Numbered from the stretch's first letter, positions 1,727 through 14,786 are shown. The stretch is DNA of 21,158 nt from a virus (IMGVR_UViG_3300042301_003057:1-21158), one strand, 5' to 3'. Translations and numbers: made by a program. The notes: generated by a model not told the origin, from the sequence alone.

Positions 1727-1812
1727 CGGTGGCCGGTGTTGGCCACGTAATAACTCTAAAGGGTTTGCAACATGTCACGCAACTTGTCAGTGCATCGTTA
1801 CCGACTCGTTAC
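1727..1812 (-). promoter_or_regulatory. Promoter/operator region of the left small-gene operon
   Basis: On the minus strand, a -10 candidate TAGAGT (1753-1758) lies 18 bp from a -35 candidate TTGCGT (1777-1782). Two tandem 12-bp boxes, GCAACATGTCAC (1767-1778) and GCAACTTGTCAG (1779-1790, plus-strand reading), overlap the -35 and spacer. Two direct GTAACGA repeats (minus strand; 1795-1801 and 1806-1812, period 11 bp) lie 12 bp above the -35, the second overlapping the stop of the upstream HNH gene. Between the -10 and the ribosome site is the inverted repeat at 1727-1746 (GTGGCC/GGCCAC arms). The promoter itself is a pattern-based inference. Confidence 0.5.
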
Positions 1813-2273
1813 AATAGCCGGTCGCCACGGGTTATGTCCTCAACTTCAACGTCACGGTTGTAGAGGTCAGGTTCTATGTCCGGCAGGGTAAACGCCCAGT
1901 TGGAACGGTCAACCTCGCCCAGGGGCTGCACGCGGAAGTCGCTCCAGATGGTTTTCCAGATTCGGTAGTCGCGGGTTCGCGGGGGCTGCCAGCCGGAGGC
2001 CACGGCGTCTCGCCATCGGTACCAGGTGGCCAGGTTGCGGAACCTTGAGTGCACGCTGAAGTGGCAGCAGGGGCAGAGGCCTACGAACGCCGTCTGGCGG
2101 TGATAGTCCTCGGTGTGTGCCTGGATGTTGAGCGGGTTGTCGCCGGCTGTTCGGCCACACATCACGCACTGAGTGGGTCGGGTTAGCCGGCCGGTTTTGA
2201 ACAGTTTGTAAACGAGGTTGCCTCGCTTATTACGGTACTCTGCAGGGAATCCGTTATAGGGTCTTTCTACCAT
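1809..2273 (-). CDS. HNH-type zinc-binding endonuclease-like protein
   Basis: The 154-residue protein carries CVMCG (C36, C39), then NIQAHTEDYHRQTAFVGLC, CPCCH (C67, C70, H71) and H75. This matches HNH-like proteins with 'C..C ... H.EDY ... LC..CH...H' order: two CxxC pairs hold zinc, and the H53/D56 region and H71/H75 would form the ββα-metal site. Such proteins nick or cleave DNA, and many phage copies are of unknown function. The C-terminal half (about residues 80-154) is rich in Trp and Arg and unrecognised. The ATG at 2273 is unusual: a TAGAGT -10-like element lies only 6 bp upstream and no ribosome site is seen, so translation may be leaderless. Confidence 0.7.
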   Translation of the reverse strand: MVERPYNGFPAEYRNKRGNLVYKLFKTGRLTRPTQCVMCGRTAGDNPLNIQAHTEDYHRQTAFVGLCPCCHFSVHSRFRNLATWYRWRDAVASGWQPPRTRDYRIWKTIWSDFRVQPLGEVDRSNWAFTLPDIEPDLYNRDVEVEDITRGDRLL

Positions 2274-2305: not shown

Positions 2306-2677
2306 CTAGAGCCGGCGCTCCAGAACATGCACTCCCCAGGTGGTCACGCGCTTGACGGTGAAGCCGTTCCGTAGGAACCAGGCCGGGTGACGGGCGTAAA
2401 CCTCAATGACGGTTGCACCGGCCTCACGAGCCCGCTCAATGCGATGGTTGAGCATGGCTGCCCCATGACCTTGCCCGCGTGCTTCCGGGGCTGTGACGGC
2501 ACCCTTGAGGCGTGCCTTCTTGTGACCGGCACCGACCCAGACCAGTGCCCCACACGAGTACTCGCTTGCGAACCATTCAGCGCCGGCCACGGGGGCATGC
2601 GGAAGGTTCTCCATGCGGTACAGGTAGCGGAAGCGTTTCATGGCCTCCTCGTAGGTCACGGCCTGGATGCTACTCAT
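2306..2677 (-). CDS. GNAT-family N-acetyltransferase-like protein
   Basis: A 123-residue protein from the ATG at 2677, chosen because a longer frame would run deep into the upstream ParB gene. This start overlaps that gene's TAG by 8 bp, suggesting coupling. The acyl-CoA pyrophosphate-binding motif is clear (PEARGQGHG, residues 64-72: R67, G68, G70, G72), after a β4-like strand (LKGAVTAP). A following α3 helix and IEVYARHPAWFLRNGF are typical of GNAT motif B. GNAT enzymes transfer acyl groups to amines; the phage Mu Mom DNA-modification enzyme shares this fold. Its position at the end of the ParB/PAPS cassette suggests a shared role, but the substrate cannot be read from sequence. Confidence 0.8.
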   Translation of the reverse strand: MSSIQAVTYEEAMKRFRYLYRMENLPHAPVAGAEWFASEYSCGALVWVGAGHKKARLKGAVTAPEARGQGHGAAMLNHRIERAREAGATVIEVYARHPAWFLRNGFTVKRVTTWGVHVLERRL

Positions 2678-3206
2678 GGTCGGGGTCGCCACCGTCAAAC
2701 TTCGTCTCGCCCGGATACCAGGCCTTGGAGTACGCCCAGTTTTTGATGTCCTTGTTCGTGAAAACGCCGTCCTGCAGGAGCAGGTCAACCTCGTTGATGT
2801 GAGCGCCGATTTCCTTCGCGATTTGTTCACGCGACCAGCCGTAGTCCTCGACCAGGCTCAGCGCGAGTTTGTGCATCTCGACCGCGACATGCGTTCCCTT
2901 CGCGCGGTTGATACGGACGGTGATGGCCATAGCGACATCGTTCTCCACCGGGAGCACGGCCACCGGCAACTTGCCTCCGTAGCGTGCCTTCACGGCCTGG
3001 CTGTCTTGCGAGAGCCTCCACCGGTGGAAGCCGTCAATAATCATGCCGTTCTTGTTGACCAGGACGGGCTGTATCCAGCCGGTGCTCAGCAGCGAGTGCT
3101 CCAGGAGGCGTAACTCGGGCTTGTGGACACGGTTCGGGTTCCAGAAGTTAGAGTGCAACTCGGTTGCGTCTCTCCACTCAATCGTTGAGATAGGGTCGTT
3201 GTTCAT
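2670..3206 (-). CDS. ParB/Srx-fold protein, IbrB-like
   Basis: The 178-residue protein has a ParB N-terminal-type domain: STGWIQPVLVNKNG (residues 41-54), then IIDGFHRWRLS (56-66) with the conserved DGxHR, and later VRINRAKGTHVAVEMHKLA (98-116). A helix-turn-helix-like segment follows (YGWSREQIAKEIGAHINEVDLLL, 122-144). The IIDGFHR and NRAKGTH motifs are like IbrB proteins, which pair with PAPS-reductase-like IbrA proteins and are reported to affect transcription of eib genes in E. coli. The ParB/Srx fold includes CTPases and ATP-using kinases. Its start overlaps the upstream stop by one base (TAATG), so expression is coupled to the PAPS-like gene. Confidence 0.8.
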   Translation of the reverse strand: MNNDPISTIEWRDATELHSNFWNPNRVHKPELRLLEHSLLSTGWIQPVLVNKNGMIIDGFHRWRLSQDSQAVKARYGGKLPVAVLPVENDVAMAITVRINRAKGTHVAVEMHKLALSLVEDYGWSREQIAKEIGAHINEVDLLLQDGVFTNKDIKNWAYSKAWYPGETKFDGGDPDHE

Positions 3207-4261
3207 TACTTTCGCTTTCCTTGTGGTTGAATAACTCGCTTGTACTGACCGGCCATCATGGCCTTCAGGACGTAATCTGGCGGGTAAGAATCAGGGGCTG
3301 CCACGGCACGTGCCTCAATGGACTTGAGTTCGGCCAGAGCCTTGTTCCGTTGAGCCGGGTCGGTGAGGTGGTCGGTAATCCAGTCGTAGACGCCGGCGTA
3401 GGACTGCCCGTATTGGTCAACGAGGGCGTTGCGGTCGTACTCGCGCCAGTAGCGTGCCTGGACGGCCGTCTCCGGGAAAATGTCCATAATCTGTTCAAAC
3501 AGTTGCGGGTCAAGAGCAGCGAGTTTATCAAACTTCTTGGCAGCCTCAGCATGTAGGGGAGTGGCCACGCGAAGTTCAGAGCCGTTCCAGGTCTGTTGGT
3601 CGTAGATAGGGCAATACTGAATGTCGTTGTCGTAGAAGTAACGGAAAATGTCGTTTTCTTCCCAGTCGTAAATCGGCTTGACGAGCATAGCCTTCTTGGA
3701 ACCGGAGGCGTTGATGTAGTTCTCGTTCATCTTGTTGACTGAGGCGCGGTAACGGATAAGGCTCTCGCTCGCGCGGATGCCGTTCACCAGAGCAACCTTG
3801 CCCTTGTACCAGGAGGCCATCAGGTCGTCCGTGGAGTATTGGTCCCAGACCTTGTTGGCCGGGAACCCCAGGTCTTCGTTGTTGAGGCCGTGAGCCGGCT
3901 TCGGGCGAACCCAGTCGCGGGCAGCGTCCCACTGAACGTACTCGTGCGACTGCCCGAGAATAAACTTCGTTGACGAAAGCGGGACGGTCAGGTACTTCAT
4001 TTCGACCCAGTCCATTTGACGGTACTTGTCCACGAAGTCAATGACGACCTGCGGAATAAGTTCCTCGTCACGAAAGACAACGTCTACCTTCGCGATGCCA
4101 CGTTCTTGAGCCACTTCGTGCACGAGGTGCAGAACGGCCAGGCTGTCCTTGCCTCCGGAGAATGCGACAACCACGCGGTCAAAGATGTCGTAGATGTGAT
4201 GTATGCGCTTCTTGGCTTCAGTCACTACGTCAACGTCAATGTATTTCTTGTACCTGGCCAC
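3206..4261 (-). CDS. PAPS-reductase-family ATP pyrophosphatase, IbrA-like
   Basis: The 351-residue protein has the PP-loop SGGKDS (residues 35-40) of N-type ATP pyrophosphatases, then VVFRDEELIP, NGIRASESLIRYR (160-172) and KPIYDWEENDIFRYF (195-209), all conserved positions of the PAPS reductase family. Its C-terminal part (ELRVATPLHAEAAKKFDKL) recalls the DUF3440 region of IbrA. I find only one cysteine (C217). The C-terminal ECGxH cysteine of true PAPS reductases and the Fe-S cysteines of DndC are absent, so a classical sulfate-reduction or phosphorothioation role is unlikely. The start is GTG at 4259-4261, directly after the TAA of the second ParB gene. Confidence 0.85.
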   Translation of the reverse strand: MARYKKYIDVDVVTEAKKRIHHIYDIFDRVVVAFSGGKDSLAVLHLVHEVAQERGIAKVDVVFRDEELIPQVVIDFVDKYRQMDWVEMKYLTVPLSSTKFILGQSHEYVQWDAARDWVRPKPAHGLNNEDLGFPANKVWDQYSTDDLMASWYKGKVALVNGIRASESLIRYRASVNKMNENYINASGSKKAMLVKPIYDWEENDIFRYFYDNDIQYCPIYDQQTWNGSELRVATPLHAEAAKKFDKLAALDPQLFEQIMDIFPETAVQARYWREYDRNALVDQYGQSYAGVYDWITDHLTDPAQRNKALAELKSIEARAVAAPDSYPPDYVLKAMMAGQYKRVIQPQGKRK

Positions 4262-4849
4262 TTACTTGTCCTCAACGATTAGTTCGCGGAGGGTTTCGGT
4301 GATGCGCTCGGCGTTCGTTTCGGCGTCCGGGTGGAGCATGCGTGCCATCTTGAGAAACTCAAACCAGACGTTCTGCTGCTCGTGGTCGTCAAAGATAATC
4401 TCGAACGAAATAATCGGGGTGCCGAGGCCACGGCTCTCGGGGGCTTCCTCGCCGGCCGGACGCTCGTCCAACTTCGCGTTCCAGGCGTCAAACCCGAGCG
4501 CGTTCATGTCGAAGTCGTCCAGGTTTTCCAGTTGGTCAAGCAACTCGCGAGCGTCCCAGGTGGCGAGTTCGGCGGTACGGTTGTCGGCAAGCGCGAAGGC
4601 AGCGACCTTCTTGGCGTCCCAGTCGGCCGGAACCTGAACCACGTCCAGTTCCTTCCAGCCGATACTGATGGCTGCTTGCAGCGTTCCGTTGCCGGCGACC
4701 ACGGTGCCGTCTTGCGACACGACAATCGGCTTCCGCTGCCCGAACATGCGAAGGCTTTCGGCCAGGGCGTCCAGGTTGTTCTGTGGATGCTTGCGAGCGT
4801 TGCGCGGGTCAAACTTGAGGTCAGCGACCTTCATGCTCTTGATTTCCAT
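4262..4849 (-). CDS. ParB-like nuclease-domain protein
   Basis: The 195-residue protein contains a ParB N-terminal domain: DLKFDPRNARKHPQNNLDAL (residues 10-29), FGQRKPIVVS (36-45), VAGNGTLQAAISIGW (51-65) and ALADNRTAELATWD (86-99). The C-terminal IISFEIIFDDHEQQNVWFEF (from 146) is the tail seen in many phage and prophage ParB-like proteins. It differs from the IbrB-like copy, having GNG instead of DGFHR. Such proteins bind DNA or nucleotides; nuclease activity is claimed for some relatives but is not demonstrable here. It begins immediately after the TAA of the Zn-ribbon gene (TAAATG), with AAAGAGAA as a modest ribosome site, and is followed directly by the PAPS-like gene. Confidence 0.85.
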   Translation of the reverse strand: MEIKSMKVADLKFDPRNARKHPQNNLDALAESLRMFGQRKPIVVSQDGTVVAGNGTLQAAISIGWKELDVVQVPADWDAKKVAAFALADNRTAELATWDARELLDQLENLDDFDMNALGFDAWNAKLDERPAGEEAPESRGLGTPIISFEIIFDDHEQQNVWFEFLKMARMLHPDAETNAERITETLRELIVEDK

Positions 4850-5047
4850 TTATTCTCTTTCCTTGAGTTGCCGGTGCAACTCGGTTAGGTCAATGACCGT
4901 GGTCTGCGGTAACCCGGCCTGAGCAGCCGTAGGAGCCCCGTAGAGGTCATGAAGTATCACCCGGTAGCACGGGTCACAGAACCACCGGCCAAAGGCTTTC
5001 ACGCCCTCGGCCAGCGGTGTCTCGCATTCAGCGCAGGTTACGTCCAC
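4850..5047 (-). CDS. Small zinc-ribbon protein
   Basis: A 65-residue protein with two CxxC knuckles, CAEC (5-8) and CDPC (24-27), separated by 15 residues (treble-clef/zinc-ribbon spacing), followed by a helical acidic tail (TELHRQLKERE). It probably binds zinc and may contact nucleic acid or a partner protein. The start is GTG at 5047, overlapping the upstream gene by 10 bp, with AGGAGG about 10 bp before it; no ATG gives the same frame. It sits directly before the ParB/PAPS/ParB/GNAT genes and may be co-expressed with them. Confidence 0.65.
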   Translation of the reverse strand: MDVTCAECETPLAEGVKAFGRWFCDPCYRVILHDLYGAPTAAQAGLPQTTVIDLTELHRQLKERE

Positions 5048-7367: not shown

Positions 7368-7691
7368 TCAAGGTGCAACTCTACGGCCAAACTCATTGTC
7401 CAACAACCACGCCACGCCAGACAAACTGTCGCGTACCGGAACCTCCAACGGACTTTCCCATGACTCTAACTTCCAGCCGTTCTCCCTGGCCAGGCTCGCC
7501 CACCGGTGGTCGCTTTCAATAAGCCCGTTCAGTTGCGAGCAGAGAACAACGATGTTGCTCGGCGCGTCAAGAAGTTTGCTTCCGCCCATACCTCGGTTGA
7601 TACGATGGTTCGGCGCGACCGCCTCAGTTTCGCCACAGTGAAGGCAATAGAAATCGCGGTCGAGATACTTCTGGAACTGCTTCGGGGTCAT
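7368..7691 (-). CDS. HNH endonuclease
   Basis: The 107-residue protein has CLHCG (C16, C19), then NHRINRGMGG (from residue 28), SNIVVLCSQLNGLIESD (about 45-61) and a C-terminal basic end. This is the phage HNH form 'C..C ... H.h.RG.GG ... SNiv.LC...n..iE'. It would nick or cleave DNA with one bound metal; roles in packaging or homing are known for relatives. The ATG at 7691 has no visible ribosome site, which is odd for this phage. The same frame remains open upstream for 45 codons without ATG/GTG/TTG until the amber stop of the preceding gene. Confidence 0.75.
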   Translation of the reverse strand: MTPKQFQKYLDRDFYCLHCGETEAVAPNHRINRGMGGSKLLDAPSNIVVLCSQLNGLIESDHRWASLARENGWKLESWESPLEVPVRDSLSGVAWLLDNEFGRRVAP

Positions 7692-9942: not shown

Positions 9943-10266
9943 GTGTTTATCGGCAACAACCAAAGAAACGAACTGAACCTGCTGCTCAAGGCCATTGAAG
10001 AAACTGAAGGCGCGGGGGAGTGCTACAACTTTCCAGACGCGTTCTACCCCGACCACCGCAACGGCGGGAACGGTGAGTTGACGAAGTGGGCAGTGGCAAT
10101 CTGCAAGGACTGCCCGCTGCAGAGGCTCTGTGGCGAGTACGCCGTGAAGTGGGAGTTGGACGGTATCTGGGGTGGCCTAGTGCCGGCCGAGCGTGAACGT
10201 ATCCGCCGTGGCCGGGGCATCACCCTGCCTAAGTACGACCCTGAGTTTTTTGGTTCCGTGGCCTAG
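9943..10266 (+). CDS. whiB: WhiB-family transcriptional regulator
   Basis: The 107-residue protein has the four WhiB cysteines in order: C27 (GECYNFPDAFYPD), C54 and C57 (AICKDC), and C63 (LC). It also has the GIWGG turn (74-78) and ER pairs just after it. WhiB-like proteins bind a [4Fe-4S] cluster through these cysteines and associate with the primary sigma factor in actinobacteria; phage copies can alter host transcription. It is the only plus-strand gene between 5 and 13 kb and is divergent from the exonuclease operon. The start is GTG at 9943, preceded by GAAGGGAACAAC, a variant of the conserved start context. Its stop CTAG is shared with the convergent gene. Confidence 0.88.
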   Translation: MFIGNNQRNELNLLLKAIEETEGAGECYNFPDAFYPDHRNGGNGELTKWAVAICKDCPLQRLCGEYAVKWELDGIWGGLVPAERERIRRGRGITLPKYDPEFFGSVA

Positions 10267-10548: not shown

Positions 10549-11142
10549 CTACAGGCGCTCTCCTGAAAGGGCGTCAGCAAGGCGCTGAACAGCCCGGTTG
10601 ACTTGCTTGAGAGCCCCGTCCTTCGTGACGTTACGGAGTTCACCGATTTCCTCGTACGTCAAACCGTCACGGAACCGCCACTCCAGAACCTCGCGCACTT
10701 GCGGGTTCAGCCCGTAGAACGTGCCGCGAATGTCGGCCATGATGGTCACCGCCTCGTTGAAGTCGTACGCCGGCGCGACCGCCTGGCCACTCACCGGGTT
10801 CACGACCAAAGTCGTTTGAGGCACGTCCTCGAACAGATAGGGCAGAGCCCGGCTCAGCAACTCAGGCGTATAAAAGTTGTCCGCGTTCAACGGCCGGCCG
10901 ACACGAGCAGCCGTCTCGCGAGCGCAATACTTCGCTGCCTCACGCCTCAGCGACACGTACAGGTTCGCGCCACCAGACGGCAACGAGCGCCACCTCGTCA
11001 CCGCGTCAGTGTTCTCTACCAGCCACAGATAGAGGTGAGACGTTAGGTCGTCCACCTCAACATTCGCCCACCGCGACCCAACACGTTGAGCCACCTTTTC
11101 AGCAACACGTAACTCGTGCGGGTCAATACTCACCCTAGACAC
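10549..11142 (-). CDS. RNA polymerase sigma-70-like protein
   Basis: A 197-residue protein with sigma-like order. An N-terminal helical part (about 10-80: ANVEVDDLTSHLYLWLVENTDAVTRW..., LRREAAKYCARETAARV) resembles region 2. A C-terminal region-4-type helix-turn-helix follows (LNPQVREVLEWRFRDGLTYEEIGELRNVTKDGALKQVNRAVQRLADAL, about 145-193). This could guide host RNA polymerase to phage promoters, or act as a DNA-binding protein without full sigma function, since region 2 is only loosely matched. The start is GTG at 11142, directly after the TAG of the metallophosphoesterase gene, with GGAGAATAG as ribosome site. Neighbouring genes (HTH, whiB) also look regulatory. Confidence 0.7.
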   Translation of the reverse strand: MSRVSIDPHELRVAEKVAQRVGSRWANVEVDDLTSHLYLWLVENTDAVTRWRSLPSGGANLYVSLRREAAKYCARETAARVGRPLNADNFYTPELLSRALPYLFEDVPQTTLVVNPVSGQAVAPAYDFNEAVTIMADIRGTFYGLNPQVREVLEWRFRDGLTYEEIGELRNVTKDGALKQVNRAVQRLADALSGERL

Positions 11143-13602: not shown

Positions 13603-13740
13603 CAGCGACCTAGCACAGAGTTGCAACAGTGGCATGTTGCTACGGCGATTCTCCGCAAAACGACCTTGTTCAGTACCGCCGAGTAGGGTACGTTCGTACT
13701 GGTCAGCAGCAGTGGCGATGTTACGCTGCACATGGCACAC

Positions 13741-13757
13741 ACCTATCTGTGATAGGT
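13741..13757. promoter_or_regulatory. Inverted repeat upstream of the integrase
   Basis: A perfect 7-bp inverted repeat, ACCTATC-TGT-GATAGGT, ends 28 bp before the integrase GTG. It overlaps a candidate -10 (TATCTG at 13743-13748, 17 bp from TTACGC at 13720-13725), so binding would block integrase transcription. Its right half extends into a GCAACCTATCAC box (13749-13760, minus strand) related to boxes in other control regions of this phage. Confidence 0.45.
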
Positions 13758-13784
13758 TGCATACAGACCCGAGAGGAGCCCCGA

Positions 13785-14786
13785 GTGCCCCTGCTCTCAG
13801 AGGCAGCCCACGAGTACTACCTCCACCTCCAAGCCCGGAACCACTCAGAGCAAACGGCCAGGGGACGGCGCAACACCGTCCGCAAACTGGCCACCATCGC
13901 CGGCGACCGGCAGTGCGCTAAGGTGGAACCGCGACACATAGACCAACTGTTCAGCAAGCACCCTCACTGGACGGCCGGCACTAGGAACAACGCGCTCTAC
14001 AACCTGCAAGCCTTCTTTAGATGGTGCCGGTTCCGGCGATACGTACCCCGAGATTACGACCCTCTCCACGGGTGGAAAAAGGAGCGCTATGAAGTTCCGC
14101 CCAAGTTGCGAATCGCTGTCACTGAATGGCCTCGGCTATTCCAACACTGCGACAACCCGGTAGAGACAATCGCCGTGGCCACCGGACTGTACTTGTTCTT
14201 GAGGGCAAGCGAGCAGCAGTGTCTGCAAGTTCAACACGTGCACCTGGCCGACCACGAAATCGAAGTGTTTCGGCCGAAGGTACGCCGGTGGGACACCATG
14301 CCAATCTCGGCAGAGTTAGCGCCCTACCTCCGTGAGCACCTAACCTGGATGGCTGCCAGAGGCTTCGCAAACCGAGAGCACTTCCTTATGCCCGCCCGGT
14401 TCCCCGCGAAGGTTCACGCCGGCGTTCAAGGCTTCCTGAAGGGCGCTGCCCCGTACAACCCCGACCGACCAATCGGCAGACCGTACGTCATTATCCAAGG
14501 CGTCCTAGAACGCGCCGGCTATCCAACGTTCCGCGAAGGCGAACACACCCTCCGGCGTTCTGGAGCCCGCGCCTACTTCGACAGCCTGGTAGGCCAGGGC
14601 TATGACGGCGCGCTCCGCCGAGTTATGAGCATGCTCGGCCACCGCAATAGCAAAGTGACCGAAGTCTACCTCGGTTTGGACATTGACCGCCTAACACGCA
14701 ACCGAGACCTCCGGGGCAAACCGATGTTCCCTGAACTGACCAACTCCAACGTGACCTCCCTGACTAGGAGCAGTCGTGGCCACTAA
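13785..14786 (+). CDS. int: Tyrosine recombinase / phage integrase
   Basis: A 333-residue protein. An N-terminal SAM-like core-binding domain (about 1-100: YYLHLQARNHSEQTARGRRNTVRKL..., RNNALYNLQAFFRWCRFRRYV) is followed by a catalytic domain with the expected residues: R140 (LFLRASEQQC), K165 (RPKVRRW), H254/R257 (HTLRRSGAR), H286 (MLGHRNS) and Y295 (VTEVYLGL). It would integrate the phage genome at attP/attB. The GTG at 13785 is chosen because GAGAGGAGC lies just upstream; the frame is open to 13629 (52 more codons), but that part reads as non-protein and covers the control repeats. It leads a three-gene plus-strand cassette. Confidence 0.9.
   Translation: MPLLSEAAHEYYLHLQARNHSEQTARGRRNTVRKLATIAGDRQCAKVEPRHIDQLFSKHPHWTAGTRNNALYNLQAFFRWCRFRRYVPRDYDPLHGWKKERYEVPPKLRIAVTEWPRLFQHCDNPVETIAVATGLYLFLRASEQQCLQVQHVHLADHEIEVFRPKVRRWDTMPISAELAPYLREHLTWMAARGFANREHFLMPARFPAKVHAGVQGFLKGAAPYNPDRPIGRPYVIIQGVLERAGYPTFREGEHTLRRSGARAYFDSLVGQGYDGALRRVMSMLGHRNSKVTEVYLGLDIDRLTRNRDLRGKPMFPELTNSNVTSLTRSSRGH

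Follow-up and report, generated by a model that had tools for sequence, protein, structure and literature searches.

An IbrA/IbrB-centered phage gene cassette with an interchangeable acetyltransferase or methyltransferase-like gene: a candidate modification system

Previously, IbrA and IbrB of Escherichia coli have been shown to activate prophage eib genes (Sandt 2002, as cited in PMC7649339). We found no other published function for this pair, whose chemistry is not known after two decades of annotation and which is often mislabelled as a 3′-phosphoadenosine 5′-phosphosulfate (PAPS) reductase plus a partition protein, or as sulfur metabolism genes. In phages, ParB proteins accompany a DNA carboxymethyltransferase and an adenylating ligase, with DNA carboxymethylation and amidation (PMC12783734), and Mom of phage Mu is a GNAT-superfamily enzyme (PMC7824862). 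A survey of the ParB-CTPase fold (PNAS 2025, PMC12704722), whose main text does not mention PAPS-type partners, indicates that ParB-fold proteins can bind DNA and nucleoside triphosphates, and a study of M. abscessus prophages (mBio 2021) compared phage PAPS reductase-like proteins with DndC. The present study concerns a cassette of ParB1, IbrA-like, IbrB-like, and GNAT genes in the virus record IMGVR_UViG_3300042301_003057. The DNA analyzed (the window) is the entire record of 21,158 bases, which may itself be a fragment. We find that this cassette is part of a conserved five-gene unit, one position of which is held by either of two unrelated transferase-like genes.

The four genes pointed out by an earlier note, made from the sequence alone, run from 4849 to 2306 on the minus strand, and the sequence confirms that their junctions abut or overlap. 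ParB1 (4262..4849; 195 aa, ParB/Srx fold with a GNG motif) is the first gene, and its TAA is immediately adjacent to the GTG start of the IbrA-like PP-loop ATP pyrophosphatase (3206..4261; 351 aa, PAPS-reductase fold). The latter meets the IbrB-like ParB/Srx-fold protein (2670..3206; 178 aa, DGFHR motif) at TAATG with a 1-nt overlap, and IbrB in turn overlaps the GNAT N-acetyltransferase gene (2306..2677; 123 aa) by 8 nt at ATGAGTAG; for GNAT, the ATG at 2677 is the preferred start, rather than the GTG at 2830. All the motifs named in that note (GNG, SGGKDS, DGFHR, and RGQGHG) are found in the proteins. Its family calls were also borne out, namely ParB_N twice (each under the gathering score, with clear PHROG matches), PAPS_reduct, and GNAT. 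The unit is nevertheless larger than described there. The HNH-like zinc protein HNH5 (1809..2273, minus strand; 154 aa) belongs to it as the fifth gene, and GNAT occupies a two-state slot; both points had been overlooked. Against the closest relative of the window (locus L005), dN was low compared with dS for the five cassette genes (dN 0.12 to 0.48; dS 1.6 to 3.0, a range covering the genes other than IbrB, for which dS is not computable). Since dN is low in all five genes and their order recurs in dozens of contigs, the cassette is not a chance arrangement. The window as a whole has no nucleotide relatives in the phage collection.

Relatives of IbrA were gathered from viral contigs and phage records, and their neighbors were identified with hidden Markov models built from the loci. 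This IbrA-seeded set holds 90 loci, many of them on incomplete contigs. ParB1 was present in 89 and IbrB in all 90, while HNH5 lay on the same strand in 58 and TerL within reach in 46. The usual order is ParB1-IbrA-IbrB-slot (GNAT or MT4)-HNH5-TerS-TerL, and one group shows the variant ParB1-IbrA-slot-HNH5-IbrB-TerL. In an IbrB-seeded set of 80 loci, which shares part of its contigs with the IbrA-seeded set, IbrA was found in 79 and HNH5 in 67. Moreover, IbrA and IbrB matched 217 and 219 phage records, respectively, with nearly identical leading genera. Judged from gene content, the IbrA-IbrB pairing is near-obligate. The same gene run stands just ahead of the packaging genes in many unrelated phages. 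The earlier note had proposed a single functional unit and had named gene order in other phages as a check; the four-gene order is conserved across related phage loci, which strongly supports the proposal. One locus (L076) carries a further open reading frame (ORF) of ~190 aa between ParB1 (end 2962) and IbrA (start 3534). By eye it resembles a 2-oxoglutarate/Fe(II) dioxygenase, possibly another tailoring enzyme.

The slot is the gene after IbrB (after IbrA in the order variant), and it holds either GNAT or MT4, an S-adenosylmethionine (SAM)-methyltransferase-like protein of ~183 to 209 aa. MT4 has a SAM-binding Rossmann motif, of which the D..G-L element is invariant, and matches phrog_11826 (labelled methyltransferase). 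The 90 IbrA-seeded loci comprise 45 with GNAT, 29 with MT4, none with both, and 16 with neither, several of the latter on incomplete contigs; in the IbrB-seeded set the corresponding counts were 36 for GNAT, 33 for MT4, and 0 for both. A pooled set of 122 distinct viral cassettes with room downstream, in which HNH5 lies near IbrB in 81, contains GNAT in 48, MT4 in 59, neither in 15, and both in none, whereas ~23 with both would be expected if the two were independent. This set takes in loci from an MT4-seeded search, which bias the GNAT:MT4 proportions and should leave the mutual exclusion unaffected. A naive probability for the exclusion takes no account of relatedness among the cassettes, which was handled through the IbrA tree. 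This tree requires 17 slot switches, at least 10 of which are forced by well-supported branches, although some branches are long. The either-or slot suggests a modification pathway, perhaps acting on phage DNA, in which the final decoration is often exchanged. On sufficiently long contigs with an empty slot, the gene that comes straight after IbrB is mostly an HNH-like or terminase gene, not one for some other enzyme.

Could the slot simply be an insertion hot spot, with GNAT and MT4 as unrelated cargo and IbrA-IbrB (with ParB1) as the whole functional set? Phages have mosaic genomes, and in the packaging module of a Mu-like phage from cryoconite an acetyltransferase takes the place of the DNA methyltransferases of other variants (PMC7468147); the 15 empty slots among the 122 cassettes would also fit. 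However, the slot has just two recurrent families, which never occur side by side, and the slot ORFs overlap the gene before them (median −17 and −22 nt). MT4-like genes, furthermore, seem by sequence searches to occur almost only in these cassettes. The MT4 profile matched 16 of 50,697 phage records, every one from an Arthrobacter, Bacillus, or Mycobacterium phage that belongs to an IbrA-bearing group. Likewise, the 69 loci of the MT4-seeded viral search contained IbrB in 64, IbrA in 62, HNH5 in 61, and GNAT in none, most exceptions being short contigs. We consider the hot-spot explanation extremely unlikely.

Cultured phages carry the cassette too. As in the window, ParB, PAPS reductase-like, and ParB-like genes occur together in Arthrobacter phages Salgado, Laroye, and Kovu, Mycobacterium phages prophi79-1 and Phlyer, and Bacillus phage 031MP002, in some but not all cases accompanied by a slot enzyme, and in the Arthrobacter and Mycobacterium phages the terminase comes next. 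The slot holds MT4 in Salgado, Laroye, prophi79-1, and 031MP002, GNAT in Kovu, and neither in Phlyer. Kovu and Salgado are ~81% identical in DNA over ParB1, IbrA, and IbrB and ~78% over the terminase genes, with IbrA and IbrB proteins 87% and 85% identical, whereas gene 8 is GNAT in Kovu and the unrelated MT4 in Salgado. Because the flanks are similar and gene 8 is unrelated, the swap is clean and limited to one gene in this stretch. These two related cultured phages thus constitute a natural experiment, in which one pathway appears to end in two different enzymes, and the question can be put directly to their virion DNA. The cultured-phage cassettes have been annotated piecemeal and, in the literature found, are not described as one system. 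Nor did we find a description of the five-gene unit or its two-state slot in the accessible literature, subscription papers being outside the search.

What chemistry might precede the slot enzyme? IbrA matches PAPS_reduct (2.8e-18) and phrog_2302 (4e-117), and its AlphaFold model (predicted local distance difference test score, pLDDT, 91.6) is nearest to human FAD synthase (Z 18.6) and then to the ATP sulfurylase subunit CysD (Z 16.8). The next structural matches are adenosine 5′-phosphosulfate/PAPS reductases, fungal FMN adenylyltransferases (Z about 14 to 16), and other PP-loop enzymes; neighboring rows of this ranking that differ by at most 1 Z are ties. Among IbrA relatives, the invariant positions include the SGGKDS loop and a number of charged residues. 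The adenylyltransferase-like fold suggests an adenylyl-transfer role. Neither ECG(L/I)H nor CxxC occurs in any of 46 IbrA proteins, some of which have no cysteine or only one, and the semi-conserved Cys217 is missing in 6 of the 46. The protein scores 32.8 bits with the cysH model (cut-off 165.1) and 29.1 bits with the DndC model (cut-off 290.4). Cysteines and structure together rule out IbrA as a PAPS reductase or sulfur-assimilation gene, and since the reductase/DndC cysteine motifs are absent, the name PAPS reductase is misleading.

The same data bear on sulfur chemistry, in which DndC-like phosphorothioation or another thiolation of phage DNA would be followed by capping of the sulfur. IbrA does share the PP-loop family with DndC and BrxP, and a glutaredoxin-like gene (PF00462, 2.3e-11) stands between ParB1 and IbrA at L005:5748-6005, with homologues in L221 and L222. 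However, the missing cysteine motifs, the lack of Cys217 in some IbrA proteins, and the low DndC score argue against such chemistry, and the window cassette has no redoxin, ParB1 and IbrA abutting there. As a general cassette member the glutaredoxin was rejected, for it is confined to the closest relatives. Sulfur transfer appears very unlikely.

ParB1 falls under the Pfam gathering score for ParB_N and matches phrog_620 (1.4e-35); its domain type is that of phage ParB-DNA methyltransferase fusions (phrog_498, 2.3e-34; PADLOC MTase_II, 4.7e-18). IbrB, also under the ParB_N gathering score, has a ParB fold by profile and matches phrog_2159 (2e-67). Its 39 aligned members share invariant D58, G59, R62, and T96-x-R98-x-N100-R101-A102-K103-G104-x-H106, and H61 is near-invariant. 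The resulting D-G-x-H-R stands at the place of the partition-ParB motif, where partition ParB carries a GERR-like sequence. In the ParB model TIGR00180, ParB1 and IbrB reach 21.9 and 18.9 bits, far from the cut-off of 58.45. These low scores speak against a plasmid partition (ParABS) ParB, no search having been made for a neighboring ParA. As an alternative, IbrA and IbrB could form a regulatory module that co-activates phage genes, here the adjacent packaging genes, with GNAT or MT4 modifying a regulator or IbrB itself. The activation of eib by E. coli IbrAB (Sandt 2002, as cited in PMC7649339), the possible binding of DNA and nucleoside triphosphates by ParB-fold proteins (PMC12704722), and the terminase genes adjoining the cassette all agree with this view. 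On the other hand, regulation explains poorly why two unrelated transferases should repeatedly replace each other in one slot, and it needs an enzyme of adenylyltransferase fold to serve as a regulator. Furthermore, the slot enzymes are missing from the E. coli branch. A regulatory module seems rather unlikely.

The GNAT protein matches Acetyltransf_1 (6.4e-6) and Acetyltransf_7, both over the Pfam cut-off, and its NCBIfam amino-acid N-acetyltransferase matches are weak. The closest structures to its model (pLDDT 95.7) are N-acetylglutamate synthase and further N-acetyltransferases that use acetyl-CoA, and the R/Q-x-x-G-x-G/A acetyl-CoA loop is present, with R67 and G70 invariant in 28 members. 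Model and loop indicate an ordinary acetyl-CoA type enzyme. MT4, for its part, is ruled out as a canonical DNA methyltransferase by its missing catalytic motifs. HNH5 matches an endonuclease family only weakly (phrog_2340, 3.8e-6), and its profile reaches HNH proteins, again weakly. Across 29 aligned relatives it has invariant C36, C39, H53, Y57, C67, C70, H71, and H75 (C-x2-C...H...C-x2-C-H-x3-H).

These properties of the slot enzymes invite the suggestion that the target is not DNA at all and that a protein, RNA, or small molecule (e.g., a nucleotide or amino-acid conjugate) is modified to block host defence or adjust metabolism. GNAT is nearest to amine acetyltransferases, MT4 is not a canonical DNA methyltransferase, and amidoligase genes lie close to some cassettes. 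Nevertheless, ParB1 belongs to the type found fused to DNA methyltransferases in phages, the cassette is located next to the packaging genes, and the amidoligases are only loosely positioned, in most cases on the opposite strand. A non-DNA target is, in our judgment, unlikely, although it deserves to be kept in mind. As to the amidoligases, in the Arthrobacter phage genomes, which are circularly permuted, genes for a gamma-glutamyl cyclotransferase, an Amidoligase_2 protein, and a glutamine amidotransferase lie upstream of the cassette at a distance of a few genes (Salgado genes 97-99, L362:47160-49736; Kovu genes 96-98, L363:47482-49946). Amidoligase homologues occur near 12 of the 90 loci, mostly on the opposite strand and kilobases off, and the amidoligase was rejected as a cassette member.

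Taken together, the locus is quite possibly a phage-borne modification cassette, where IbrA would use ATP to activate a target and GNAT or MT4 would cap the product, phage DNA being the likeliest target. The earlier note had suggested a modification or regulatory system. Modification gains indirect support from the repeated swap of acetyltransferase and methyltransferase-like genes and from the adenylyltransferase-like IbrA, while the DNA hypermodification mentioned there is only plausible. As unrelated transferases repeatedly replace each other at one overlapping operon position, the simplest explanation is that both act on the same intermediate, and the adenylyltransferase-like enzyme upstream suggests ATP activation as the source of this intermediate. 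DNA is favored because of the kinship of ParB1, the site at the packaging genes, and the precedent of PMC12783734. From this evidence we infer what chemistry is performed, in which order its steps run, what each ParB-fold protein does, and that DNA is the target. IbrA would bind ATP through its SGGKDS PP-loop and adenylylate the target with release of pyrophosphate, IbrB serving as its dedicated ParB-fold partner and ParB1 as a DNA-associated one. The finishing enzyme would then cap a group on the product: GNAT of the window phage with acetyl from acetyl-CoA, MT4 of its relatives with a SAM-derived group. HNH5 may be a zinc protein in an accessory role, perhaps a nuclease able to tell modified from unmodified DNA. 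The likeliest target would be newly made phage DNA soon to be packaged, and by exchanging the cap often the phage could evade host nucleases that recognize a particular mark. More tentatively, the cassette could represent a new class of phage DNA hypermodification, wherein a PP-loop adenylyltransferase and ParB-fold partners put a reactive group on the base or backbone, to be capped by the last, exchangeable enzyme with either acetyl or a group derived from SAM.

Several observations weigh against a DNA modification pathway of this kind. GNAT looks less like a DNA enzyme than like an acetyltransferase for amino acids or amines, and the catalytic motifs (D/N/S)PP(Y/F/W/H) and PC(Q/N) are absent from all 29 MT4 proteins. 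The slot is empty in 15 of the 122 cassettes, so capping is not essential. In the E. coli-type branch GNAT or MT4 is found in 0 of 80 loci, and the role reported there for IbrAB is eib activation. Finally, phage DNA as the target is read from context. If the proposal is true, related phages bear chemically different marks on one scaffold. Should DNA be the target, this would be a new, easily swapped mark on phage DNA, of interest for restriction evasion and for DNA-labelling enzymes; should it not be, the Kovu/Salgado comparison would help reveal the true one.

Elsewhere in the window, a 65-aa zinc-ribbon-like ORF (4850..5047, minus strand) abuts ParB1 upstream. The earlier note had listed it as a neighbor of the cassette, and the ORF indeed exists, with two CxxC pairs in its translation (CxxC...CxxC); it has no clear family match in Pfam or PHROG scans and did not show up as a conserved cassette member. 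HNH-like zinc patterns were seen by eye in two more short ORFs (7368-7691 and 121-525). A WhiB-family regulator gene lies at 9943-10266 on the plus strand (PF02467, 2e-9), a sigma-70 region 4 protein at 10549-11142, and a tyrosine-integrase-like gene, slightly under the Pfam cut-off, at 13629-14786. With its WhiB-like regulator and integrase-like protein, the window phage looks temperate, with an actinobacterial host, and the integrase-like gene and sigma-70 region 4 protein suggest a temperate phage with its own regulator.

As a known defence system, the cassette drew only weak PADLOC matches, to DndC, BrxP, and methyltransferase models. Mu Mom and the cassette GNAT are both phage members of the GNAT superfamily; however, the latter has the canonical acetyl-CoA loop, and the similarity of its profile to Mom was not detectable (hhalign probability 0.4%, with one Mom sequence only). 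The analogy with Mom drawn in the earlier note thus gained nothing and homology has no support from this comparison, though kinship at the fold level may remain. The Dnd, Ssp, and BREX-4 systems (DndC, SspD, and BrxP with ParB-family DndB) resemble the cassette in joining a PP-loop ATP pyrophosphatase to a ParB-superfamily companion, whereas IbrA differs from DndC, SspD, and BrxP in having neither Fe-S or dyad cysteines nor a DndC-level score. E. coli IbrA/IbrB likewise combine a PAPS-reductase-fold PP-loop protein with an adjoining ParB-fold partner bearing a DGFHR-type motif. The near-obligate pairing is common to both branches (IbrA in 78 of the 80 E. coli-type loci), although the proteins are just ~24 to 32% identical to those of the cassette and none of the modelled terminase types was seen in that branch. 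In many contigs of these loci (L282-L361) the order is IbrB-IbrA, the reverse of the window, and an HNH5-like gene occurs in 23 of the 80. The CmoA-CmoX-CmoY system of Synechococcus phage S-B43 employs different enzyme families, CmoX being a cytosine C5 enzyme with none known in the cassette, yet, as our proposal would have it for the cassette, it modifies phage DNA in several steps, uses an adenylating enzyme, and has co-occurring ParBc proteins (PMC12783734).

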